A stretch of 45,962 bases of DNA, from NCBI GenBank assembly GCA_029933365.1, contig JAOZOH010000006.1, positions 1-45,962 on the forward strand, read 5' to 3'. The notes beneath the pieces are model-generated. The model ran no database searches. It was not told where the DNA came from and saw only the letters and a list, made by a program, of their open reading frames with translations. Positions within the stretch are counted from its first letter, which is position 1, and each line of letters starts with the position of its first letter. Origin of the DNA: Desulfuromusa sp. (GTDB lineage Bacteria > Desulfobacterota > Desulfuromonadia > Desulfuromonadales > Geopsychrobacteraceae). This document shows positions 7,767-45,498 of this stretch, one piece after another. Made by a program: the position numbers and the translations under genes.

Positions 7767-9464
7767 TTAACTCTGCAACATATTGTAGGTTTGTTCAGTT
7801 GGCAGCATTAAACCAAAGCAGGTTCCTTCTTCGGAAAGTTCCTCCAAAAAGATATCCCCCTTCATCCGATCGACAACTACTTTTACCAGTGCCAGCCCGA
7901 TCCCGACCCCATGAGGTTTTTCCGTATCGATGTCTCCAAGCTGAGTATAGGAATCAAAAATCGTCTCGTGGGCTCTTGGTGGAACGGTCTGCCCTTGATT
8001 GAAAACTTGCAAATAAATATAGTCTAACCCCTCAAGGTTTTTCACCTCTGCTTTAATTCTTACGACTCCACCATCACAATTAAATTTGACGGCATTATCA
8101 ATCAGAGAGTTAAAAGCCATGCCAAACTTCTCTGGGTCCCCATATATTTCCGGCAAATCATCCTGGATATCGATTTCAGTGATCAAGTTACGCTCACCCA
8201 TTTTCGCGCTATAGTACTGAAAAGAGTCAGCAATTGACCAGGGCACGCCAAAGGATTTCCACCGCCAGACCTCACGTTCTGATTCAATGGAAAACAACCT
8301 CAACATCCCGGTGATTAACTTTTCCAGCCGCTTCCCCTCACCATGAACCTGAATCAAATTATCTTTAATTTCCTCTTCGGAAAGCTTATTGAAAAAGGAG
8401 AGGGACAAATCAACGTATCCCATAATTGAGGTTAAAGGAGTTTTTAATTCATGGGAAAGATTGCACACCAGCCGGGTGCGAGCTCGATTTACCCGCACCA
8501 GATCTTCATTTGTATGTTCAAGTACCAGGGCTTGCTGACGCAGGCTATTGATCAGTTTAAAGTTTTCCATCGCCAGAGAAACCTGGTTAGCGATTGCCAC
8601 CAAAAGATTCTGGTCTTCTAAATCGAAAGGATATCCAGTGGTTTTATTGTTGACGTTAATAACCCCAACCAGTTCATCGCGCACATAGATTGGTACAGAA
8701 AGCAAAGACTGGTTTTTGTAGCGCTGCCCACCATCCAAACTTTTAAAACGGCTATCCTGATCAATATTAGGAACCAGTACCGGTTCACCAGTGGCCAGAA
8801 CATGACCTGAGATTCCCTCTCCCGCTGCAACTCGAACCGAACGGGCAATATTCTTAGATAATCCGTAAGCAGAAGCGATGTGAAGCAAACCATCATCTTT
8901 AAGCAACATCAGGGAAGCAACCTCAACTCCGGTGGAATGAACAATCGAATCGAGTATTTGATCAAATAATTCCTGCAAGTCGTTTCCGGAATTGGCAGTT
9001 TCCCCCACCTTTTTAAGGAGGATAAGATCTGCCATCCGCCGCTGCGCTTCCAGGCGAGCCTGATTCTGATGTAGCGCATGGAAATAGGCACTGATTCCCT
9101 GTCTGGCAGCTTGTAGAACTTCCTCCTGAGAAAAGGGTTTGACCAGATAATCAAGAGCTCGCTCCCGTAATACCTGACGAGCAACATTGAAATCCTGTTG
9201 TCCGGAAATCATGATCACCTGAATCTCAGGGGTGTGCTGTTTGATCATTTGCAGCACATTAACCCCATTAATATCAGGCAGAGAAACATCACAAAAAACC
9301 ACTGCAACATTCTCCTGATCAAGGGTCTTCGTGATGCCAAGACCTGATCCGGAACGCAACACCTGACATTCGAGACATTCCAGCATATCTTCCATAAGAT
9401 CCAGAATGAGGGGTGCGTCATCGATCAGCAGAATTGCTGGGTTTGCTTGTGGTGGTTCTGTCAT
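7767..9464 (-). CDS. receiver-GAF-histidine kinase hybrid
   Basis: 565 residues, no membrane segment. Residues 8-125 are a receiver with D15/D16, phosphoacceptor D59 (FCDVSLPD) and K109 (YLVKPFS). Residues ~160-315 form a GAF domain (FDQILDSIVHSTGVEVASL ... GEGISGHVLATGEPVLVPN). After a short coiled coil, HisKA carries H338 in NLSHELKTPLTS. The HATPase domain has an N-box FNSLIDNAVKF and G-box GVGIGLALVKVVV. It therefore senses a cytoplasmic signal through GAF and can be driven by an upstream kinase through the receiver. It lies 15 bp after the secA stop, probably co-transcribed. Its own response regulator is not adjacent. Confidence 0.92.
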   Translation of the reverse strand: MTEPPQANPAILLIDDAPLILDLMEDMLECLECQVLRSGSGLGITKTLDQENVAVVFCDVSLPDINGVNVLQMIKQHTPEIQVIMISGQQDFNVARQVLRERALDYLVKPFSQEEVLQAARQGISAYFHALHQNQARLEAQRRMADLILLKKVGETANSGNDLQELFDQILDSIVHSTGVEVASLMLLKDDGLLHIASAYGLSKNIARSVRVAAGEGISGHVLATGEPVLVPNIDQDSRFKSLDGGQRYKNQSLLSVPIYVRDELVGVINVNNKTTGYPFDLEDQNLLVAIANQVSLAMENFKLINSLRQQALVLEHTNEDLVRVNRARTRLVCNLSHELKTPLTSIMGYVDLSLSFFNKLSEEEIKDNLIQVHGEGKRLEKLITGMLRLFSIESEREVWRWKSFGVPWSIADSFQYYSAKMGERNLITEIDIQDDLPEIYGDPEKFGMAFNSLIDNAVKFNCDGGVVRIKAEVKNLEGLDYIYLQVFNQGQTVPPRAHETIFDSYTQLGDIDTEKPHGVGIGLALVKVVVDRMKGDIFLEELSEEGTCFGLMLPTEQTYNMLQS

Positions 9465-9479
9465 CAGATTATCTCAACT

Positions 9480-12170
9480 CTATTTGCCGCAACATTTCTT
9501 ATATTTTTTCCCGCTGCCACAGGGACATGGATCATTTCGCCCGACCTTGTCTTCTTCCCGGATGGTCGGTTTATTGACTTGGACATCTCCTTCGTTCCGG
9601 TTCATCGACATCTTCTGCTGGCGCTGTTGTGCCTCCAACTGCTCAACGTCTTCTTCCCGCGCTAACTGGATACGGAAAATTTTCTGCAGAACTTCCTCCC
9701 GGACCCGCCCCATCATCTCCATAAACAAACTATAAGCTTCGCGCTTATATTCTTCTTTGGGGTTTTTCTGTCCGTAGCCACGCAGACCGATTCCCTCTTT
9801 AAGGGAATCAACAGAAAGCAAATGGTCTTTCCACTGTGAATCGATTGTCTGCAATAACAATATCCGCATCAAGTGTTCCATGATCGGCGGGGTGAAATCC
9901 ACTTCCTTTTCCAACAAACGATCATTAGCCTGTTTTTTCAACAAGGCTTCTAATTCTTCATATTTGGTGCGGGAGACATCCAATGAACTTAAGTCCGGGG
10001 GAAAATTAAACTGATTTAAAAAATCGTCTGCAAGCCGCTGCCAATCCCAATGGGTTGACGAATTTCTATCGGGGCAGAACGATCCCAGCATATCCTCAAC
10101 AGTATCGGAGATGATTCCCTGGAAGGTCTCCGGCAGTTGTTCCCCACCTAAAACTTCACGACGTTGAGTATAGATAACATCGCGCTGCCGATTCATAACA
10201 TCGTCGTACTCAATCAGATGCTTACGAATATCGAAGTTATGTGCCTCAACCTTTTTCTGTGCATTTTCAATAGCCTTACTGATAATTCCGTGTTCGATCG
10301 GTTCACCTTCAGGGATTTTCAGCTTATCCATCACAAATGCAACACGCTGCGAACCAAAAATACGCAGCAAGTCATCTTCCAGGCTGAGATAGAAATGGCT
10401 CTTTCCAGGATCGCCCTGACGACCAGAACGCCCACGCAACTGATTATCTATGCGCCGCGATTCATGCCGCTCGGTCCCTAGAATGTAGAGACCGCCGGCA
10501 TCAAGGACATCCTGTCGCTCTGCTTTACAGCGCTCCTCATAACCGGGGAAAAGCTCACTGAAACGAGCCGCGGGGTCCTCCGCATTGGCAGCTTCGGCCC
10601 GCGCCATCATTTCCGGATTGCCGCCAAGGACAATATCAGTTCCCCGACCCGCCATATTGGTTGCAATTGTGACCGACCCTTTACTGCCGGCCTGAGCAAC
10701 GATATAAGCCTCGCGCTCATGTTGTTTTGCATTGAGAACGTTATGGGGGACTCCCCTTTTTTTCAATAAAGCTGAAAGCACTTCTGATTTATCGATAGTG
10801 ATTGTTCCAACCAGAACCGGCTGTCCATTTTTATGGCACTCAACGATATCTTCCACCACAGCAAGAAATTTTTCTTTTTCTGTCTTATAGATAACATCAG
10901 CCATGTCATCGCGCTGCATGGGTCGATTTGTAGGGATGACAACCGTATCCAAATTATATATTTCATTAAATTCAGCAGCCTCAGTTTCCGCAGTACCAGT
11001 CATTCCTGCTAGTTTTTCATACATACGGAAATAATTCTGGAACGTAATTGTTGCCAGAGTTTGATTTTCGTTAGCTATTTTTACCCGTTCCTTGGCCTCA
11101 ATCGCCTGGTGTAAACCATCACTCCAACGCCGTCCTGGCATCAACCGCCCGGTAAATTCATCAACAATCTGAACTTCACCATCCTGGACAACATAATCAA
11201 CATCTCGATGGAACAGGGCATGAGCCTTGAGTGCTTGGTTAACGTGGTGCAATAGTTCAATATTATTCGATTCATACAGATTATCTACATTGAGTAACTG
11301 CTCTACCTTTGTCACCCCTGCTTCGGTCAAAGCAGCCGATTTTGCTTTTTCATCAACAGTAAACTCACCAGTATGCCGTTTTGTTGCCTGACCAATCTTC
11401 CCATCCCGTTCTTCAATTACCTCCCCTTTTTTCAACCGGGGAATGATCTGGTCGACGGTATAATAGAGCTCGCTTGAAGATTCACTTGGGCCGGAGATAA
11501 TCAGCGGAGTTCGAGCTTCATCGATCAGAATTGAGTCAACTTCATCCACAATCGCATAATGCAGATCGCGTTGAACATAATCCTCCAGATCAAACTTCAT
11601 GTTATCCCGCAGATAGTCGAAGCCAAACTCATTATTAGTTCCATAGGTAATATCTGCAGCATAAGCCGCCTTGCGTTGCACATCGGTCACCCCATGAACG
11701 ACGCAATCGACAGTCAAGCCAAGAAACTGATAAAGTTGTCCCATCCAGGCAGCATCACGTTTTGCCAGATAGTCATTGACGGTGACAACATGGACACCCT
11801 TACCAGTCAAAGCATTGAGATAGATTGGCAAAGTCGCCATCAGCGTTTTCCCCTCACCAGTCTTCATCTCTGCAATTTTTCCAGCATTGAGAACCATCCC
11901 GCCAATCAACTGAACATCAAAAGGACGCAAGCCAAGAACCCGCTGACTGGCCTCCCTGACAACAGAAAAAGCCTCGGGCAATAATTGCTCCAAACTTTCA
12001 CCAGAGTCTAACCGTTGACGGAAATCGGCGGTTTTGGCTTTCAGTTGCTCATCATTCAGTGCGGTAAAATCAGCCTCAAGAGAATTAATCTGTTCAACCA
12101 TTGGCTTCAGTTTTTTAAGATCACGCTCATTTTTGTTGCCAACAACTTTTTTTACTAAATTACGAATCAT
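9480..12170 (-). CDS. secA: preprotein translocase ATPase SecA
   Basis: 896 residues, full length. SecA drives export of unfolded proteins through SecYEG. Walker [15 protein letters not shown], the DEAD-type VDEVDSIL, the AGMTGTA segment, the helicase-like [16 protein letters not shown] and [13 protein letters not shown] motifs are all visible. The C-terminus ends in the SEC-C zinc finger [16 protein letters not shown], which binds SecB and ribosomes. A ~350-bp spacer with a repeat element separates it from the upstream M23 gene. Confidence 0.98.
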
Positions 12171-28528: not shown

Positions 28529-28590
28529 TGAATTTCTACATGCAAAAATAATTCGGGCTCCCGTTTTTCATTATAAGGTTGCTTAGATAT

Positions 28591-30750
28591 ATGAAACCAA
28601 GCTTTAAATATTGGATTTTTCTTGGTGCAATCTATTTTGCTCTTATCAGCATTATTGTCGCTAGTCTGATCGGTGCCTGGGCCAGCCTCAATGAAGGGCA
28701 ACAGGTGGCCTTGGGGGAAATGATCAATAAGTTGGTTCCTTTCCCATTACTCGGAACAATCACAATTCTGTTTATTATCGGCGCATTGATTAACCTGTTA
28801 TTCAATGACTATATCATTCCCATACTCAAACTTGCGGAAAGTGCAAGAATCATCTCATCTACAAACCCGGCACATCGGGTTCAAATCAAAAATGCCTCTA
28901 AAGAGATTCAATATTTAGCAGAAATTATCAACCAGTCGGCAGATGCTTTCATTGAACTACAAGAAGATGTTACCGGCAAGATCGCTGTGGCACAATCATC
29001 CTTGAATGAAGAACGCACTCGTTTGGCAGCACTGATGTCTGAACTGCCACACGGTGTTGTTGTCTGCAATACCGATGGACAGATTCTCCTCTACAACCAG
29101 CAAGCGCAAAAACTATTCGCAGATGAACCAACCGCAGTAACCCAGACAGGATATACTCAAGGCATCCTTGGACTGGGACGTTCAATTTTCAGTATTCTGG
29201 ATCGTGATCCGATTGTCCACGGATTGGAAATGCTGCATAAATGTCACAAGTCGGGTCGCACGAAGATGGTCAATAATTCCATGATAACCCTGCATACAGG
29301 GCTCTGTCTGCGGGTCAATATGGCGCCATTTTTTACTGAACATGAAGGCCAAAAGATTATTTCTGGATTTGTACTGACCTTGGAAGATATGACCAAGCAG
29401 ATAGAATCAGACAGTCGCCGCGACATGCTGATCCAATCCCTGATTGATGAGCAGCAAAAAGACTTAGAAGATATTCGTGACTCGATTACAAACATCCTTG
29501 ATAGGCCTAAACTTGATCCGGAAGAATTACATAGTTATCGAAAAAAAATCGATCAAGCCTCCCAGTCATTGCAGGAAAAAGTCAGTGAAGCAAGAGCCAA
29601 CTATGCTCTTCATCTACATGCCCTGAGTAAAAATGAGAATGTCCTGGCTGACAACCTCCTCGATATTATCAGCAACAACATTAACGAAAGGTTTTCAATC
29701 AAGGTGACCGCTCTTGCTCCTAAAGGTGTCTGGTTGCAACTTGACAGTTATTCCATGGTCCAAGCCATCTCTCATCTTGCAGGATTACTGAGCACTCATA
29801 CACAAATCCCGGAGTTATTGATGACCTTAACAGCTGAAGAGGAATCTGGGACAGAGCTTGTTATTGCCTGGCCGGAAGCAAGAGCAGACTTAACTCTACT
29901 TGAAACCTGGCAACAAACACCTTTGATCACAGATGCAAATGGAAAGTTACTAAATTTTAAAGACACCATCGAAAATCTGGCCGGAAAAATTACCCCAATT
30001 TTTGGCAATAACGAAGAATATACAGGGGTCATGATTAGCTTGCCACCGCTGGATCAAGACCACCGTCTGGCAATCCAAAGTGACATTGAGCACCGCCCGG
30101 TCTCTTACGAATTTGACCTATTCAACCGAGGGGAGTGGAAGGAATTGGGGCAAACCCCCCTGCGCAAACTGACCTATGTTGTCTTCGATACAGAAACAAC
30201 GGGTCTAAGTCCGTCAAAAGGGGATGAGATTATTCAACTTGGTGCCATCAGAATCATTAATGGACAGCTTCTTTATCACGAAGTTATCGACCAACTGGTG
30301 GATCCAAAACGTTTTGTACCACAGGAATCGGTTGCCATCCACGGCATTCAGCCGGCTCTACTTCAGGGGCAACCAACCATCGATAAAGTCCTGCCACATT
30401 TTCACACCTTTGCTGAAAACTCAGTGCTGGTTGCCCACAATGCCGCCTTCGATATGCGCTTTCTGCAACTTCAGGAAGAAAAAACCGGTATTGTTTTCGA
30501 CAATCCGGTTCTTGATACACTGTTGCTCTCATCAATTATCCATCCAAATCAGGAATCCCACTCTCTGGATGGATTAGCAGAACGGCTCAATGTTACAATC
30601 GTCGGTCGTCACACTGCTCTCGGTGATGCTATTGTAACCGGTGAAGTTCTGGTGAAGATGATCCCACTTTTGGAAGCGCATGGAATATATACCTTGGCCG
30701 ATGCTCTGGCCGCTGCCGCACAATCACCCTTTGCCAAAGTTGCCTATTAA
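28591..30750 (+). CDS. membrane PAS sensor fused to DEDDh exonuclease
   Basis: 719 residues from ATG 28591 (a TTG at 28579 would add four). Two membrane helices (~7-30 and ~52-73), a HAMP-like and coiled-coil stretch (~74-140) and a PAS domain (~146-260, ELPHGVVVCNTDGQILLYNQ). Next comes a region (~270-510) laid out like a histidine kinase core but with no phospho-acceptor His and no N-box or G-box. Residues ~529-700 are a complete DnaQ-like 3'-5' exonuclease: D533 and E535 (FDTETTG), D621 (HNAAFDMRF), H674 and D679 (GRHTALGDA). So a sensor kinase seems to have swapped phosphotransfer for a nuclease output. It heads an operon with a second exonuclease and an Acs-like protein. Function not established. 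Confidence 0.85.
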   Translation: MKPSFKYWIFLGAIYFALISIIVASLIGAWASLNEGQQVALGEMINKLVPFPLLGTITILFIIGALINLLFNDYIIPILKLAESARIISSTNPAHRVQIKNASKEIQYLAEIINQSADAFIELQEDVTGKIAVAQSSLNEERTRLAALMSELPHGVVVCNTDGQILLYNQQAQKLFADEPTAVTQTGYTQGILGLGRSIFSILDRDPIVHGLEMLHKCHKSGRTKMVNNSMITLHTGLCLRVNMAPFFTEHEGQKIISGFVLTLEDMTKQIESDSRRDMLIQSLIDEQQKDLEDIRDSITNILDRPKLDPEELHSYRKKIDQASQSLQEKVSEARANYALHLHALSKNENVLADNLLDIISNNINERFSIKVTALAPKGVWLQLDSYSMVQAISHLAGLLSTHTQIPELLMTLTAEEESGTELVIAWPEARADLTLLETWQQTPLITDANGKLLNFKDTIENLAGKITPIFGNNEEYTGVMISLPPLDQDHRLAIQSDIEHRPVSYEFDLFNRGEWKELGQTPLRKLTYVVFDTETTGLSPSKGDEIIQLGAIRIINGQLLYHEVIDQLVDPKRFVPQESVAIHGIQPALLQGQPTIDKVLPHFHTFAENSVLVAHNAAFDMRFLQLQEEKTGIVFDNPVLDTLLLSSIIHPNQESHSLDGLAERLNVTIVGRHTALGDAIVTGEVLVKMIPLLEAHGIYTLADALAAAAQSPFAKVAY

Positions 30751-30822
30751 TTGTTCAAAAAGACCCCTAAATAAAGAGGCACGGGGAAGAATCAGACATC
30801 ATTTTAAGATTGGACAGAGCAG

Positions 30823-31521
30823 ATGTTGAAATCAATTTTCAAGGGATTGGCCAGTAAAAAAAGGGAAATCAATGATCCCCTGCTTGCCTATGTAATCGAT
30901 GCCTGTGCCACAATTGAAGATCGCTCTACACTTAAACAAAAAATACCAGAAACCAGCTTCTGTGTGCTTGATCTGGAAACCACCGGGCTGGATATGGCCA
31001 ATGATGTGATTATCAATATTGGTGCGGTCAAACTAAAAAAAGGCAAAATCACCAAACTTTTTGAAGCCTATACCAAGCCTCCAATTTCGATTCCGGAAAA
31101 ATCAACCGAATTTCATGGCATGGTTGATTCCATGTTTGAGGATAAGCCGGTCATCGGTGAGGTTCTCCCTGAATTTCTGCAGTTTGTCGGTAACAGCGTT
31201 ATTGTTGGTCACCACATCAATTTTGATATCCGCATGTTGCACCGCCACCTGAAAGAGTTCTACGATGTTGGTATCTCCAATGCGGTCTGGCTCGACACCA
31301 TGTTCCTCTATCAGATGGCTCACGAGGATCAGGCTCATCAACCACTGGATCATTTACTCGAACGATATTGTGTTCAATGTGATCAACGTCATACGGCACT
31401 AGGTGATGTTGTGGCAACAGCCAAGGTCTTCGTCAAAATCATGAAAGAGTTACCGACCTCTCACAAAACCATTGGGGATCTGTCCCGTGCCCAGAATGAA
31501 ATGCGTAGAAAGGATCAATAA
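30823..31521 (+). CDS. DEDDh 3'-5' exonuclease (DnaQ/Orn superfamily)
   Basis: 232 residues. A ~40-residue N-terminal helix precedes one exonuclease domain with every catalytic residue: D50 and E52 (LDLETTGLD), D135 (HHINFDIRML), H190 and D195 (QRHTALGDVVAT). No polymerase or other domain. It lies 72 bp after the sensor-exonuclease gene and 3 bp before the Acs-like gene. Stand-alone DEDDh exonucleases next to acetyl-CoA-synthetase and acetate-uptake genes are known in several proteobacteria without an agreed role. Substrate could be DNA, short RNA or a dinucleotide signal. Confidence 0.88.
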   Translation: MLKSIFKGLASKKREINDPLLAYVIDACATIEDRSTLKQKIPETSFCVLDLETTGLDMANDVIINIGAVKLKKGKITKLFEAYTKPPISIPEKSTEFHGMVDSMFEDKPVIGEVLPEFLQFVGNSVIVGHHINFDIRMLHRHLKEFYDVGISNAVWLDTMFLYQMAHEDQAHQPLDHLLERYCVQCDQRHTALGDVVATAKVFVKIMKELPTSHKTIGDLSRAQNEMRRKDQ

Positions 31522-37413: not shown

Positions 37414-40400
37414 TCATGTTAAAACCTCAACCAGAAAAGCAACAATGGCAAAATCCCCTGCGGCAGCCTCTTCCTCCGGGATAATGACTTCATCATAATC
37501 AGGGTTCTCTGGTTTCAGTATAATGCTCTCATGGATCCATTCAGAGTCAGGATCAATTCGCTTTTTACTTTGGTATCGTTTGACTGTAAAGGAGGCTCCC
37601 GTTTCCTCGTCTATACGACCACCATGTCTGGCCAATACCACCCTGCCCTGCCTTGTTCCACCAACATTTCTGGAGAAAAGGCAATAACTGCCATCTTGGA
37701 TCATGGGCTCCATGGACCTCCCCTGTATTCTGGCGACAAACATGGAATCGTCAAAATTTGACCGGTTGGTCAATCCTGTCATATTCAGCCAATCATCCGG
37801 ATCTAAAGGCAGTGAAGATTCTAGGAAAGCACCAGCAGCAATCGCTAGAGAATAATGAGGAACAACGTTTATGAACCGGTCTTTGGCTGGGGGATTATCG
37901 AGAAAGATCAACTTTGGTTTCAGGATCTTGCTCTCTTTTGATCTCACGCCCCTCTCTGCAGGGAGTAGAAAGTGATAGTCGTGGTCTTCAAGCTCTATCT
38001 CAAGTTGTGCAAAATACTTTTGAAGATCTTCAATCATCTGCGTCCTGATAGATTGGTAGTCTTCCTTCGTAAGTTGGGCCTGTAACACAGAATCAATAGC
38101 TACATAATTTAAATCCCGACAGTGATGAAAAAATTTTTTCCGTTCAAATTTCTCAAAAGGATTCCTGAATAAATTAGCTTGAAGCTCAGCTCGATCTTTC
38201 AAATATTCATCCCGGTTATAAGGGCTTTTATTCTTTTCACAGCGACCAACCCGTTCATGAACCACCATATAGAAACGTTGATAAAGTTCAAAAACTTCAG
38301 GTAATATTGCCTCACCTCGGTTGTTCCTGACCTTAAGAAAGGCCAGCAGAAAAATAATTTTGTATGAAAAAGTATAATCACGTTTTTTAAGAAACTCCAT
38401 GAAGTCCTGACGACGTGTTTCTGCAGTGTGAACAGGTAATCCCAAGGTCGACCGCATGTTTTCAACTTTCTTAGGATCAAAAAAATGCAAGGTTGAACGA
38501 CCAAATGGATGAGCGAAGTCGGCCGTAATTGCTCCCTTTTTTAGCCAGGCTATGACTGTGCCAGTGGAGACAAAGAGTTCACGAGCCAATTGTTCCTCGT
38601 TTAAAAAGTTGCCATACAAACTGTCAAAGGTGAAGATATCTATCGGCTCAACTCTACGAACACCCTCATATAATCCATCAAGAGTAACAATTTCATCTTG
38701 TCTGGTACCTGTTTCAGATTGAATAAGATCAGAGAAAGGGCTGTAAGTTCGGATGCCAAGTAGGGCGTGCAAAGACATAGGATTAAGTCTGGCACCATAA
38801 TTGTCCACTACGTCCAGAACATAAAGAGCCTCTTTACCCGGATAATGGCGGAGACCCCGCCCCAGTTGCTGGGTATAGAGAACCTTGGAAAAGGTCGGTC
38901 GTGCCATAACCAGTATTTGAGTTTGTGGTGCATCCCAACCCTCGGTGAGCAGATCACAGGTACACAAAAATCGAACTTCGCCAACCTTGTATTTCTGCTG
39001 AGCAGCCTCGGCATATCGGCGATCTTTACCATCCACCGCCATAGAGGTTAGACCAGACTTGTTCAAAGCGTCAGTCATTCTCCGGGCATGAGCAATATCC
39101 ACGCAGAACACCACTCCCTGTTTGCCACTGAAGGAACCACCAAAATATTTAGTGATAATCTCGACAATAAGTTGATCACGTGAAGGCACCCTTAAGGTTT
39201 GTTGAAGATCACTTTTGACATATTCTCGACCATTGAAACGAACCTCTGAAAGATCAATATTTGACTTAATTCTAAAGCAACGGACCGATGGAACAAGACC
39301 CTTGGTGATCGCCTCGGCCAGGCCCAGAGGGGATTCATACTCTCCGAATATCTCTTCCAGATTCTGCCGATCCAGACGTTCTGGGGTAGCAGTCATCCCG
39401 ATAAGATGTCTGGGGTTAAAATGTTCCAGTACCCGCCGCAATCCGGCAGCTGCCGCATGATGAGCTTCATCAATCACGATATAGTCAAAATGGGTACCCT
39501 CCAACTCATAATAATGCCTATGCATAAAAGCATAGGTCTGGACAATGACCGAAAGAGTTGCCACAGAAAACAAATCGTCACCAATATGATCTCGGTATAT
39601 TGGGAGTCGCATCTTGAGACGAGCCACGGTCTGTGTACGCAATTTATGGCTGGGCACAAGAATTAGAGCCCTAAAAGTTGAGCACGCTAAAAGGAATGAT
39701 TCAATGTCCTTGATAAAGATCTCGGTCTTACCAGTACCAGTCGGCAGAACAACAAGAAAATTGCTACGACCTTTTTTTCTCTCCCTGGTGAAATATTCCA
39801 AAGCATCTATTTGATGGTCATGGAGATCAAGGGTAGCAAGCTGACGGTCTACTTTGAAGTGCGAGCGTGGCAGGAAATGTGTTGAGTCACCAAGAAAAGT
39901 TTGTAATTCTTGGATGAATTTCTCCCGGTCAGCCATGCCTCGTAGTGACCATCGAAAAGTTTTAAAACCATCCGCAGTAAGGGAATTTTGTTTAAAAAGC
40001 TGGGAGCGATATTTCTTCGGTCCAATAACTGCTGGGTGGTGAAAAGATTCCCCGTTCAGTTCAACGGCAAACTTCACCCCTCTAGAGAAAAGGGCGTAAT
40101 CGATAAATCTACGTTTCCCTTCACAGTCATAAAAGGGGAACTCCCTATAAAGAACATCACGAGAAGCTTCACCAAAGGCTGTAATGAAACAATCCTCAAA
40201 TATCGACTCAGGACGGCTGGGGTCGATATCCTGCTCTTGCCGGTTACGGCCAAAGTGCCTGATTTGATCTGGCTCCTCGCCTCCACCCAGAAAAAATCGA
40301 ATTTCGCTCAAAAGGTCATCTAACGACTCACCAGAATCATATAAAAAGCGGAAAACCCGATCATATTGATGAACAAAACTATTCTGGATGCTGGTGTAAT

Positions 40401-40557
40401 CAACATATTGGTGGTCGACAAGATCGCATATTCCCATGTCAATTATGACGCAGGTTCCGGCACCATCATCATAGATGAAGCCGGTATCGACTGTCCTGAT
40501 GTGAGAAAGCTCAAGTGGAGCCAGAAGATTGCACAAGCCGTGATTAACGACTGTCAT
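37414..40557 (-). CDS. nuclease - SF2 helicase - LexA-type S24 protease fusion
   Basis: 1047 residues from ATG 40557, chosen for the AGGAGA site 7 bases upstream. Residues ~120-220 resemble Vsr/DUF559-type PD-(D/E)XK nucleases: D153 (RRFIDYAL), E166 (AVELNGESFHH), then a basic tail ending FKTFRW. Residues ~245-600 are an SF2 helicase: Walker A PTGTGKT (272-278), DEAH (363-366), GMTATPERLD, LLTEGWDAPQT and QQLGRGLRHYPGK. A helix-turn-helix-like segment (~653-675) and a helical middle follow. Residues ~895-1047 are an S24 domain: candidate cleavage site A908-G909 (AIAAGAF), serine S948 (GRSMEPMIQDGS), lysine K993 (FTVKRYQ). It overlaps the upstream methyltransferase by 14 bp. Defence or repair role is inferred; I know of no characterised protein with this order. 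Confidence 0.85.
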   Translation of the reverse strand: MTVVNHGLCNLLAPLELSHIRTVDTGFIYDDGAGTCVIIDMGICDLVDHQYVDYTSIQNSFVHQYDRVFRFLYDSGESLDDLLSEIRFFLGGGEEPDQIRHFGRNRQEQDIDPSRPESIFEDCFITAFGEASRDVLYREFPFYDCEGKRRFIDYALFSRGVKFAVELNGESFHHPAVIGPKKYRSQLFKQNSLTADGFKTFRWSLRGMADREKFIQELQTFLGDSTHFLPRSHFKVDRQLATLDLHDHQIDALEYFTRERKKGRSNFLVVLPTGTGKTEIFIKDIESFLLACSTFRALILVPSHKLRTQTVARLKMRLPIYRDHIGDDLFSVATLSVIVQTYAFMHRHYYELEGTHFDYIVIDEAHHAAAAGLRRVLEHFNPRHLIGMTATPERLDRQNLEEIFGEYESPLGLAEAITKGLVPSVRCFRIKSNIDLSEVRFNGREYVKSDLQQTLRVPSRDQLIVEIITKYFGGSFSGKQGVVFCVDIAHARRMTDALNKSGLTSMAVDGKDRRYAEAAQQKYKVGEVRFLCTCDLLTEGWDAPQTQILVMARPTFSKVLYTQQLGRGLRHYPGKEALYVLDVVDNYGARLNPMSLHALLGIRTYSPFSDLIQSETGTRQDEIVTLDGLYEGVRRVEPIDIFTFDSLYGNFLNEEQLARELFVSTGTVIAWLKKGAITADFAHPFGRSTLHFFDPKKVENMRSTLGLPVHTAETRRQDFMEFLKKRDYTFSYKIIFLLAFLKVRNNRGEAILPEVFELYQRFYMVVHERVGRCEKNKSPYNRDEYLKDRAELQANLFRNPFEKFERKKFFHHCRDLNYVAIDSVLQAQLTKEDYQSIRTQMIEDLQKYFAQLEIELEDHDYHFLLPAERGVRSKESKILKPKLIFLDNPPAKDRFINVVPHYSLAIAAGAFLESSLPLDPDDWLNMTGLTNRSNFDDSMFVARIQGRSMEPMIQDGSYCLFSRNVGGTRQGRVVLARHGGRIDEETGASFTVKRYQSKKRIDPDSEWIHESIILKPENPDYDEVIIPEEEAAAGDFAIVAFLVEVLT

Positions 40558-41137
40558 TTCGTTCTCCTGGACAGAGTAGATAACCAAGCCAGATGTCCGA
40601 TGACCGAAGTTTTGACACCTGCCGTGAAAAACCTTTCACCCTAAGATCAAGCTTCATAAAAATTGTTTCCATCTGCTCTTGTGACCAAAGAGTGAACACC
40701 CGTCCATCATCAACAACATGTTTCCCTGTACCCTCCTTCAGTGACAGATAGATCAAACCACCATCATTTAAAGCAACACGGACTCGGCCTAAAATTTCTG
40801 CAAACAGATGCCGTTCCACATGTACCAATGCACCGATCAAGATAAGTGCATCAACGGAGATACTGGCAAAATTAAAGGTAAAGAAATCGCCTACGAATAC
40901 CGGGCAACCAGAAAACTCTCGTGCCATAATGGCTAGGGATGGGGAACGTTCTAGCCCGGTGGGATTGAATCCTTGATTAGCAAGCCACCGTAGGTCACGG
41001 CCTGATCCACAGCCAACATCAAGGATAGATGCACCAAGCTGCAACTCTTTAGCTAGTGGCATAAGAAAAGATGTTGAATCGAGCTGAAAAGTAGAGTCAA
41101 AATAGCTTTTAGCGTGTTTTTGGTAAAAATCAATCAT
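40544..41137 (-). CDS. class I SAM-dependent methyltransferase
   Basis: 197 residues, a Rossmann-fold methyltransferase of the Methyltransf_11/25 type. Motif I is SILDVGCGSGRDLRWL. The acidic residue closing strand 2 is in PTGLERSPS, VFVGDFFTFNF is motif II, and DALILIGALVHVER is motif III. There is no DPPY/NPPY or PCQ motif, so it does not look like a DNA base methyltransferase, and its substrate is unknown. Its last codons overlap the start of the nuclease-helicase-protease gene by 14 bp, and the ribosome site of that gene lies inside this one, so the two are very likely made together. Confidence 0.85.
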   Translation of the reverse strand: MIDFYQKHAKSYFDSTFQLDSTSFLMPLAKELQLGASILDVGCGSGRDLRWLANQGFNPTGLERSPSLAIMAREFSGCPVFVGDFFTFNFASISVDALILIGALVHVERHLFAEILGRVRVALNDGGLIYLSLKEGTGKHVVDDGRVFTLWSQEQMETIFMKLDLRVKGFSRQVSKLRSSDIWLGYLLCPGERNDSR

Positions 41138-43908: not shown

Positions 43909-43994
43909 GCCGAAGTGGTGGAATTGGTAGACACGTCGGTCTCAAACACCGATGAGCTCAGCTCGTGCCGGTTCGATTCCGGCCTTCGGTACCA
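43909..43994 (+). tRNA. tRNA-Leu (anticodon CAA)
   Basis: 86 bases with encoded CCA and a long variable arm, as in leucine tRNAs. Acceptor GCCGAAG/CTTCGGT, anticodon arm TCGGT-CTCAAAC-ACCGA with CAA, T arm GCCGG-TTCGATT-CCGGC. Reads UUG. A tyrosine integrase gene lies 270 bp downstream in the same direction, so the 3' end of this tRNA is the likely attachment site. Confidence 0.96.
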
Positions 43995-44005
43995 AAAATG
44001 AAATT

Positions 44006-44033
44006 AGCCCCTGAGAAATTAGGGGCTTTTTCT
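44006..44033 (+). terminator. rho-independent terminator after tRNA-Leu
   Basis: AGCCCCT (44006-44012) pairs with AGGGGCT (44021-44027), loop of 8, followed by TTTTCTTT. It lies 11 bp after the tRNA and should isolate it from the integrase gene. Confidence 0.85.
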
Positions 44034-44168
44034 TTGTCCCAGACTATCCTACACGTTCCCAATAAATCCATAAATATCTATTAATTCAATATCTTATTGA
44101 ACACCAACCCTCTCAAGACAAGACCCATTATGAAAACCTTTCCACCCTAAAACGTCCCACCACAGCCC

Positions 44169-44239
44169 TTGACATCCTGAGTTTTTAGGTATACACGTTA
44201 GGTATACAGGCCAAGACATCTGAACACGCGTATACCTAA
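44169..44239 (+). promoter_or_regulatory. integrase promoter with three TTAGGTATAC boxes
   Basis: Two direct copies of TTAGGTATAC (44185-44194, 44198-44207) and one inverted copy GTATACCTAA (44230-44239) lie 24-78 bp before the integrase start. A perfect TTGACA at 44169-44174 is followed after 15 bp by TATACA inside the first box, so a protein on the boxes would block this promoter. They could be operators for an element regulator, or arm-type integrase/excisionase sites. Confidence 0.65.
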
Positions 44240-44262
44240 AATAGCCTTCAAGAGGTGCCAAA

Positions 44263-45498
44263 ATGGCGAGAAGAACCACCCCCCTGACCGACGCTCAAGT
44301 AAGAAACGCAAAATCAAAAGATGGTAAACAAGCTACTTATTTTGATGGTGGCGGCATGTACCTGCTGGTTAGACCGTCCGGAGACAAAGGCTGGAGGTTC
44401 AAGTATCGCCTTCATGACAAAGAAAAGCTCATATCCTTTGGCACCTACCCCGACATTAGCCTATCAGAGGCACGTAAATTCCGATCTGACGCACGCAAAC
44501 TTGTTGTCAAGGGCATTGACCCCCTTCAAGCCAGAGAAGAGCAAAAACAGCATTCAAAAACGGTTCGAGAGAACACATTCAAAAAGGTTGCCCTTGAATG
44601 GCATAGCAATCAAACTGATTTGGCAGAGACGACAAAACGACTGCACATGCGCCGCTTCGAGAAAGATATTTTTCCGATAATTGGAGACATGCCGATCAGC
44701 GAGATCAAAACAAAGCAGATATTGGATAAAGTTCTTCGACCCATGGAAGCCAGAGGTGTGGGAGAGATGACGGCTCGTGTCAAAAGTATCATCTCTCAAG
44801 TATTCCGCTTTGGTGTGGCTTCTGGGTACACTGAACGAGATATAACCACCGACCTGACAGGAGCTTTGAAAAAAGTTGTTCGTGGACACCGTGCAGCAAT
44901 CACGGAACCAGCAGAACTGGCAAAGCTGCTGAGAGCAATCGACAATTACGACGGCAATAAAGTTGTCAAACATGCCCTTCAGATAGCCCCGCTGTTGTTT
45001 GTTCGTCCTGGTGAGCTTCGAGCTATGAAATGGACAGACATTGATTTTGAAAATTCTGAATGGCGATACTTTATTGGCAAGACAAAGACGGAACATATCG
45101 TCCCCCTGTCCCGTCAATCAGTGGCAATTCTGCAATCACTCCACCCCCTGACAGGAGCATGTGAGCTTGTCTTTCCTTCTGTCCGATCCGTTGCTAGACC
45201 GATCAGCGACAACACCCTGAATGCAGCTCTTCGGCGCATGGGGTATACCAAAGAGGAAGTCACAGCACATGGATTTAGAGCCACGGCCAGAACGATTCTT
45301 GAAGAGGTTCTGCAGGAAAGAATTGAATATATTGAGCACCAGCTAGCTCACGCCGTCAAGGATGCCTTAGGGAGAGCATACAACCGGACGAAGCATCTGG
45401 AGCAACGCCACCGCATGATGCAAGTCTGGTCAGACTATTTAGATGGCTTAAAATTGGGTGCAGCCAAGGTAATACCGATCCGCAAGGCAGTTGAATGA
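44263..45498 (+). CDS. P4-type tyrosine integrase
   Basis: 411 residues. The N-terminal DUF4102-type arm-binding domain (~1-90: LTDAQVRNAKSKDG, YLLVRPSGDKGWRFKYR, ISFGTYPDISLSEAR) is followed by a SAM-like core-binding domain (~100-195) and the catalytic domain. Active-site residues: first Arg in VRPGELRAMKW, Lys in GKTKTEHIVPL, HxxR in AHGFRATAR, His in HQLAHAV, and Tyr in GRAYNRT. All are present, so it should be active in site-specific integration at the neighbouring tRNA-Leu. AGAGGTG lies 5 bases before the ATG. Confidence 0.95.
   Translation: MARRTTPLTDAQVRNAKSKDGKQATYFDGGGMYLLVRPSGDKGWRFKYRLHDKEKLISFGTYPDISLSEARKFRSDARKLVVKGIDPLQAREEQKQHSKTVRENTFKKVALEWHSNQTDLAETTKRLHMRRFEKDIFPIIGDMPISEIKTKQILDKVLRPMEARGVGEMTARVKSIISQVFRFGVASGYTERDITTDLTGALKKVVRGHRAAITEPAELAKLLRAIDNYDGNKVVKHALQIAPLLFVRPGELRAMKWTDIDFENSEWRYFIGKTKTEHIVPLSRQSVAILQSLHPLTGACELVFPSVRSVARPISDNTLNAALRRMGYTKEEVTAHGFRATARTILEEVLQERIEYIEHQLAHAVKDALGRAYNRTKHLEQRHRMMQVWSDYLDGLKLGAAKVIPIRKAVE

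Follow-up and report, generated by a model that had tools for sequence, protein, structure and literature searches.

The window analysed here, 45,962 nucleotides from Desulfuromusa sp. (NCBI GenBank assembly GCA_029933365.1, contig JAOZOH010000006.1), encodes a fusion protein in which a Vsr-type nuclease, a superfamily 2 (SF2) helicase and an S24 domain follow one another in a single chain of 1047 residues. The nuclease and helicase motifs are present, the S24 cleavage site and catalytic dyad are intact, the gene has a conserved methyltransferase partner and a defence-rich context, and the S24 module is portable, being found on other effectors. These features suggest, as a tentative reading that we place somewhat short of an even chance, a defence module of two genes, directed against DNA, in which the effector bears a portable autoprotease as a damage-triggered self-cleavage off-switch. 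A switch of this kind is more likely to turn the effector off than on.

The fusion protein and its S24 module

The 1047-residue frame is genuine and runs from 40557 to 37414 on the minus strand. Its parts and their order (nuclease, SF2 helicase, S24) are as the original prediction had them. What that prediction missed were the minus strand, the methyltransferase partner, a first nuclease-like domain that looks degenerate, the majority of relatives that have no S24, and the presence of the S24 module on other effectors. The features of the protein are as follows.

37414..40557, minus strand: Vsr-type nuclease / SF2 helicase / S24 fusion protein, 1047 aa
37417..37881, minus strand: S24 module, residues 893-1047
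37831..37836, minus strand: Ala908-Gly909 codons, predicted self-cleavage bond
37714..37716, minus strand: Ser948 codon, predicted nucleophile
37579..37581, minus strand: Lys993 codon, predicted general base
40270..40557, minus strand: apparently degenerate nuclease-like domain, residues 1-96 (from profile comparison and invariant residues)
39877..40224, minus strand: Vsr-type PD-(D/E)XK nuclease domain, residues 112-227 (E139, D153, E166, N168)
39376..39831, minus strand: helicase lobe 1 (ResIII), residues 243-394; Walker A K277, DEAH 363-366
38845..39138, minus strand: helicase lobe 2 (Helicase_C), residues 474-571
38452..38598, minus strand: MerR/HTH_17-like segment, residues 654-702, strongly conserved (weak match, made in a relative)
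38005..38415, minus strand: conserved helical region, residues 715-851, final segment NPFEKFERK

The C-terminus passes the curated Pfam cut-off for S24 (39.1 against 23.3 bits) and has both site and dyad, which bears out the S24 fold proposed for it. Pfam S24, the Ala-Gly site and the Ser-Lys dyad are shared with the autoproteases LexA, UmuD and CI; there, however, the domain is carried by a repressor or a polymerase subunit, and here by a nuclease-helicase. In a set of 121 S24 sequences (120 fused and one separate), the site, Ser and Lys follow the pattern AG/S/K in 103, AS/S/K in 5 and CG/S/R in 13. The three residues on the N-terminal side of the predicted bond are IAA in 87 of them, VAA in 13, AAA in 8 and IAC in 13, that is, [IVA]AA in 108/121. 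An end of the -[IVA]AA type resembles the C-terminus (degron) of cut LexA. In the full-length structure model, which has a mean predicted local distance difference test (pLDDT) score of 81.1, residues 906-910 and 912-917 fall below 50, as expected of a mobile cleavage loop. From its sequence, the fusion protein is predicted to cleave itself at A908-G909. Searched on its own, the S24 segment has no PDB sequence match down to 0.01.

Residues D153 and E166, singled out earlier as PD-(D/E)XK-like, are kept together with E139 in 190-191 of 192 family rows. Residues 112-227 have a Vsr-like fold, a likeness of the domain as a whole and not a residue-by-residue superposition of the nuclease residues on Vsr. 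Vsr itself is a stand-alone mismatch enzyme from a family known for T:G mismatch specificity; the domain here differs in being joined to a helicase and preceded by residues 1-96, which look like a degenerate copy of it. Hhalign pairs residues 5-96 with 108-230 (probability 90.8, E 1.2e-6, 42 columns), matching YTxxQN..VYRF with YxSQLxKQN..KVFRW, and D40, Y51, Q58, N59 and R70 of the first domain are invariant across 39 aligned relatives. The helix-turn-helix (HTH) segment of the original prediction survives in part: it is MerR/HTH_17-like and strongly conserved, but the match is weak and was made in a relative.

PDB sequence matches of the fusion protein are confined to the helicase core, and the matches listed in a full-length fold search are mostly helicases, with low TM scores. 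Searches of an open-licence full-text library turned up no description of an S24 domain fused to a nuclease-helicase, in keeping with the original prediction, which knew of no characterised protein with all three parts in this order.

The S24 module on the core and on other effectors

S24 is optional on the nuclease-helicase core. In a core tree of 104 sequences, 61 have no fused S24, 30 have an S24 of the Lys type and 13 one of the Arg type, and the starred branches force at least six changes for the S24-less state. Relatives without S24 are thus common, and the core does not need S24 to exist. They stop shortly past the NPFEKFERK segment and are ~840-880 aa long. A fused protein (L022) and a locus where core and S24 are neighbouring genes (L023) are sisters with support of 100. 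L023 is the only locus in which a separate S24 gene (4.1e-34) adjoins an S24-less core, while L037 has a weak S24 match (0.0013) in a neighbour protein of 1805 aa. The loci are defence-rich, and S24 is missing from most relatives.

The Arg type has Cys-Gly at the site and Arg for the catalytic Lys. Its 13 sequences keep the nuclease residues, and the 11/11 with a named organism are Gammaproteobacteria. Long branches (4.28 and 2.6 changes per column) separate the two types, and G008, from which the Arg-type locus L010 comes, has no match to the Lys-type profile at 1e-12; a second S24 type has thus joined the core or replaced the first. Loci L010, L011, L012, L014-L017 and L068 all have a C-terminal S24 of this distant Cys-Gly/Arg type on the same core.

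The Lys-type module is found on quite different proteins. A search with residues 893-1047, restricted to proteins of 576-1832 aa sharing exact words with the query, gave 17 proteins: 10 family members, 5 HNH_4 proteins (579-609 aa) and 2 DruE-like helicases. The domain of P0246 comes from a precomputed label only, and the S24 of P0247 is slightly under the Pfam cut-off (22.9 against 23.3 bits). Between the HNH_4 protein P0241 and the family member P0091 the S24 shows 72% identity, and the two chassis differ. P0241 was in turn searched against 398 genomes of the phylum of G008, giving 4 SLFN-g3 helicases with the module and 1 HNH protein without it. Two of those four helicases have a weak GIY-YIG match, at 18.6 and 20.2 bits under a Pfam cut-off of 22.6. 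By eye, the SLFN-g3 proteins have an N-terminal PD-(D/E)XK stretch and the DruE-like ones a DUF559-like stretch.

A census was made with an S24 profile of 17 rows, drawn from five chassis and the separate S24, at E <= 1e-12. It found matches in 18/971 genomes (4/398, 10/395 and 4/178), 17 of them at 1.1e-43 or better and one at 3e-20. Six of these genomes, G478, G447, G460, G552, G005 (L007) and G213 (L023), have rows in that same profile, and G001, G287 and G340 were already known from the family search; the nine new ones are G288, G083, G371, G092, G281, G076, G825, G895 and G868. In 15/18 matches the S24 module ends a nuclease/helicase frame of 732-1996 residues. These comprise four Vsr-helicases (G001, G287, G340, G005), seven SLFN-g3 proteins (G478 and G460 by Pfam; G083, G371, G092, G281 and G895 by similarity to them), two GIY-YIG-SLFN-g3 proteins (G447, G552), one HsdR (G288) and one DruE-like protein (G825). 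The others are one separate S24 gene, with the sequence of that in L023 (G213), and two short or broken frames (G076, G868). None of the 16 resolved matches lies in an HTH-repressor frame.

HsdR was absent from the S24 profile, and its appearance (EcoR124I HsdR match of about 1e-35) is therefore an independent addition to the list of chassis. The HsdR-type protein is at L159:7219-10500 on the minus strand, where a contig end cuts off its N-terminus. The DruE-like protein in G825 is 67% identical to P0243 and P0245; DruE-like carriers of the module are P0243, P0245 and L170. The S24 matches at L164:7808-8359 (G076) and L169 (G868) are in short or interrupted frames with no effector identified alongside, and may be broken genes.

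In a tree of 40 S24 modules, those of the HNH_4 proteins are nested among those of the Vsr-helicases (100/98), and the Vsr-helicase label must change four times or more, so the module has passed from one chassis to another. Each of the 11 added modules has the Lys and a cleavage-type Ala-Gly, which in L163 reads Val-Ala-Gly; 10 of them have Ser-Met and L159 has Ser-Leu. It is conceivable, although we would not expect it on balance, that one dedicated sub-family of S24 autoproteases serves DNA-attacking effectors of prokaryotes in general as a plug-in, passing among six or more chassis (Vsr-SF2 helicase, DruE-like, HNH_4, SLFN-g3, GIY-YIG-SLFN-g3 and HsdR) and tying the life of each effector to the DNA-damage state of the host, as a cis-encoded restriction alleviation. 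S24 kin on at least five other kinds of nuclease or motor hint at common on/off control upon DNA damage. If this is right, the self-cleaving S24 tail on HsdR, DruE-like, SLFN-g3-type, HNH and Vsr-helicase proteins would link damage sensing to defence in a direct and portable way, and would offer a sequence handle by which undescribed defence genes could be found.

Possible roles of self-cleavage

Restriction and defence nucleases endanger the host when host DNA is damaged. We propose that the Vsr-type nuclease and SF2 motor attack invading DNA, as their context suggests, and that the S24 module would respond to DNA damage, most likely via RecA on single-stranded DNA, as LexA does. The module would then cut its own chain at A908-G909, so that S24 is removed and the effector ends in -IAA. 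Such an end resembles the C-degron of the LexA family, and Clp-type proteases might then degrade the effector. S24 would in this way be a built-in safety valve, a restriction alleviation in cis, by which an effector harmful to host DNA would bring about its own elimination.

There are precedents for several of these steps. When LexA-family proteins are cut between Ala and Gly, degrons become exposed that Clp, Lon and FtsH recognise (PMC7101444), and for one phage CI the N-terminal fragment is removed by ClpX (PMC10584840). The type I enzyme EcoKI undergoes restriction alleviation through ClpXP, which removes HsdR; the study did not find the degron in HsdR (PMC4231737). DruE is described as a helicase-nuclease on intermediates containing single-stranded DNA, likely competing with RecA (2026 preprint, PMC13192584), which makes RecA filaments plausible company for such effectors. 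The off-switch is placed first because the -[IVA]AA end is like that of cut LexA, because HsdR is a ClpXP target, and because a clade with its nuclease residues intact tolerates an Arg-for-Lys S24, which may be unable to cut.

Some considerations weigh against it. IrvR self-cleaves without RecA (PMC7101444), and RecA need not be the trigger. Lineages without S24 would be without the valve. The Ala-Ala before Gly may reflect protease specificity alone, and the Arg-type S24, distant as it is in sequence from the Lys type, could have its own chemistry.

Cleavage could also work in the opposite direction, with S24 keeping the nuclease-helicase inactive until infection or damage leads to self-cleavage and frees residues 1-908 to destroy DNA. 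We consider this unlikely, though it deserves some weight: the cut product would resemble the natural S24-less proteins of other lineages, the site and dyad are intact in 108/121, and the context is rich in defence genes. However, the new C-terminus is degron-like, and the 13/121 sequences with Arg for the catalytic Lys still keep their nuclease residues, which is not predicted by an obligatory on-switch if Arg abolishes cutting. HsdR, one of the chassis, is not known to require proteolytic activation elsewhere, and we count this against an on-switch too.

The retention of an Arg-type S24 in 13 sequences, all 11 with a named organism being Gammaproteobacteria, and the separate S24 gene in L023 would both fit an S24 that mainly recruits the effector to RecA filaments or joins two effectors as a pair, with cleavage secondary or absent. 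Docking or dimerisation alone, however, needs neither site nor dyad, and 108/121 sequences retain Ala-Gly (or Ala-Ser) along with both Ser and Lys, which makes such a role improbable.

Partner gene, neighbourhood and known systems

The gene upstream of the effector is the second member of the proposed module.

40544..41137, minus strand: class I S-adenosylmethionine methyltransferase, 197 aa; shares 14 nt with the start of the effector gene

A search with this protein alone found a homologue within six genes of the effector in 64/80 family loci; in 58 of these it directly adjoins the effector and has the same orientation. A methyltransferase profile raises this to 67/80, a figure that is partly by construction because the profile was built from the same loci, which is not true of 64/80; 18 control loci around SecA give one match, at 15.9 bits. 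The methyltransferase is present in 18/18 loci with fused S24, and is fused to the effector in P0114 and L047. It matches Methyltransf_25/11-type and small-molecule methyltransferase models, its closest PDB relatives are uncharacterised or small-molecule enzymes, and no HsdM-type model matches it at the thresholds used. It is probably a conserved accessory acting on a small molecule, a nucleotide or a protein, and not a classical DNA methyltransferase.

A protein of 104-141 residues adjoins the effector in eight loci (L034, L036, L037, L039, L040, L071, L074 and L079), five of which have no methyltransferase; relatives of the L034 protein are named MazG-superfamily pyrophosphatases in their sources. 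Two further loci without the methyltransferase have an HIT protein beside the effector. A restriction-modification system with a classical DNA methyltransferase was considered and is not favoured, given the models and PDB enzymes that the partner fits and the MazG-type (5 loci) or HIT (2 loci) protein in some loci that have no methyltransferase.

The neighbourhood was compared with PADLOC profiles, in counts that refer to profile families and not genes, as one helicase can match many. The set was 102 neighbours of 110-1500 aa within five genes of the effector, leaving out the methyltransferase, from 20 loci, of which 18 carry a fused S24, one (L023) a separate S24 and one (L013) none. They match 104 families at E <= 1e-8, for example DpdE, SspC, mREase_IV, ZorD, DarG and mad3. 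For comparison, an equal number of SecA neighbours was taken from genomes of that set (the first 102 out of 166, covering 11/18 SecA loci), and these match 10 families: eight members of PDC-S07 and one each of mad2 and mad3. Other loci gave 224 families, a biased count that is not used as support because 101/209 eligible neighbours were picked by hand. The family is rare, occurring in 4/395 genomes of one phylum, the centre genome included (E <= 1e-60).

This setting, the patchy occurrence and the intact S24 site and dyad partly support the earlier proposal of a defence or repair nuclease whose state is set by proteolysis, the proteolysis itself being predicted from sequence. That the protein is instead a DNA repair nuclease-helicase under SOS-signal control is just as improbable as docking, in view of its rare and patchy occurrence, the defence-rich neighbourhood, and the HsdR and DruE-like proteins among the other carriers of the same S24.

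The fusion protein resembles several known systems in part. Its best PDB sequence match is the type IV restriction enzyme SauUSI (PDB 7clg; 2.4e-38 over 249-594), and its best PADLOC match is to the mREase_IV profiles (6.3e-44, helicase core), but these matches span only residues 233-594, and its N-terminus is Vsr-type and its C-terminus S24. SauUSI-type enzymes have an N-terminal PLD nuclease and a C-terminal DUF3427, neither of which is among the Pfam matches of the fusion protein to E 1. Like HsdR, it has an N-terminal PD-(D/E)XK nuclease followed by an SF2 motor, and it matches the NCBIfam EcoAI R-subunit over the motor (4.7e-29), but at 101.3 bits against a cut-off of 550; the system also differs from type I restriction-modification in that its methyltransferase is not HsdM-type. 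The match to Druantia DruE, a YprA-family helicase described as a helicase-nuclease defence effector (PMC13192584), is weak (0.025). In the PADLOC scan of the fusion protein and the methyltransferase there is no full mad match and no multi-gene mad cluster as in MADS; the methyltransferase has a partial mad2 match (5.7e-14 over 280-399 of 492), and mad2 is matched in the control genes as well.

Some observations concern mobility. A viral scan gave seven loci with helicase-core relatives at 26-31%, and a phage-collection record (MT836124.1, 12.7 kb, unannotated, from human faecal samples) has an S24-less relative at 8076-10487, 39% identical over 79% of the query. Among 428 matching plasmid records, none covers over 80% of the query. 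No convincing att-like repeat was found between tRNA-Ala and the cassette, and promoter and terminator scans gave a signal near the shuffled background. At 43909-45498 of the window there is a tRNA-Leu followed by a frame that by eye is like a tyrosine integrase, likely an island start near the cassette. At 28579-31521 there is a 723-aa frame which by eye is like a sensor with a C-terminal DnaQ-type exonuclease, and a second DnaQ-type frame adjoins it.
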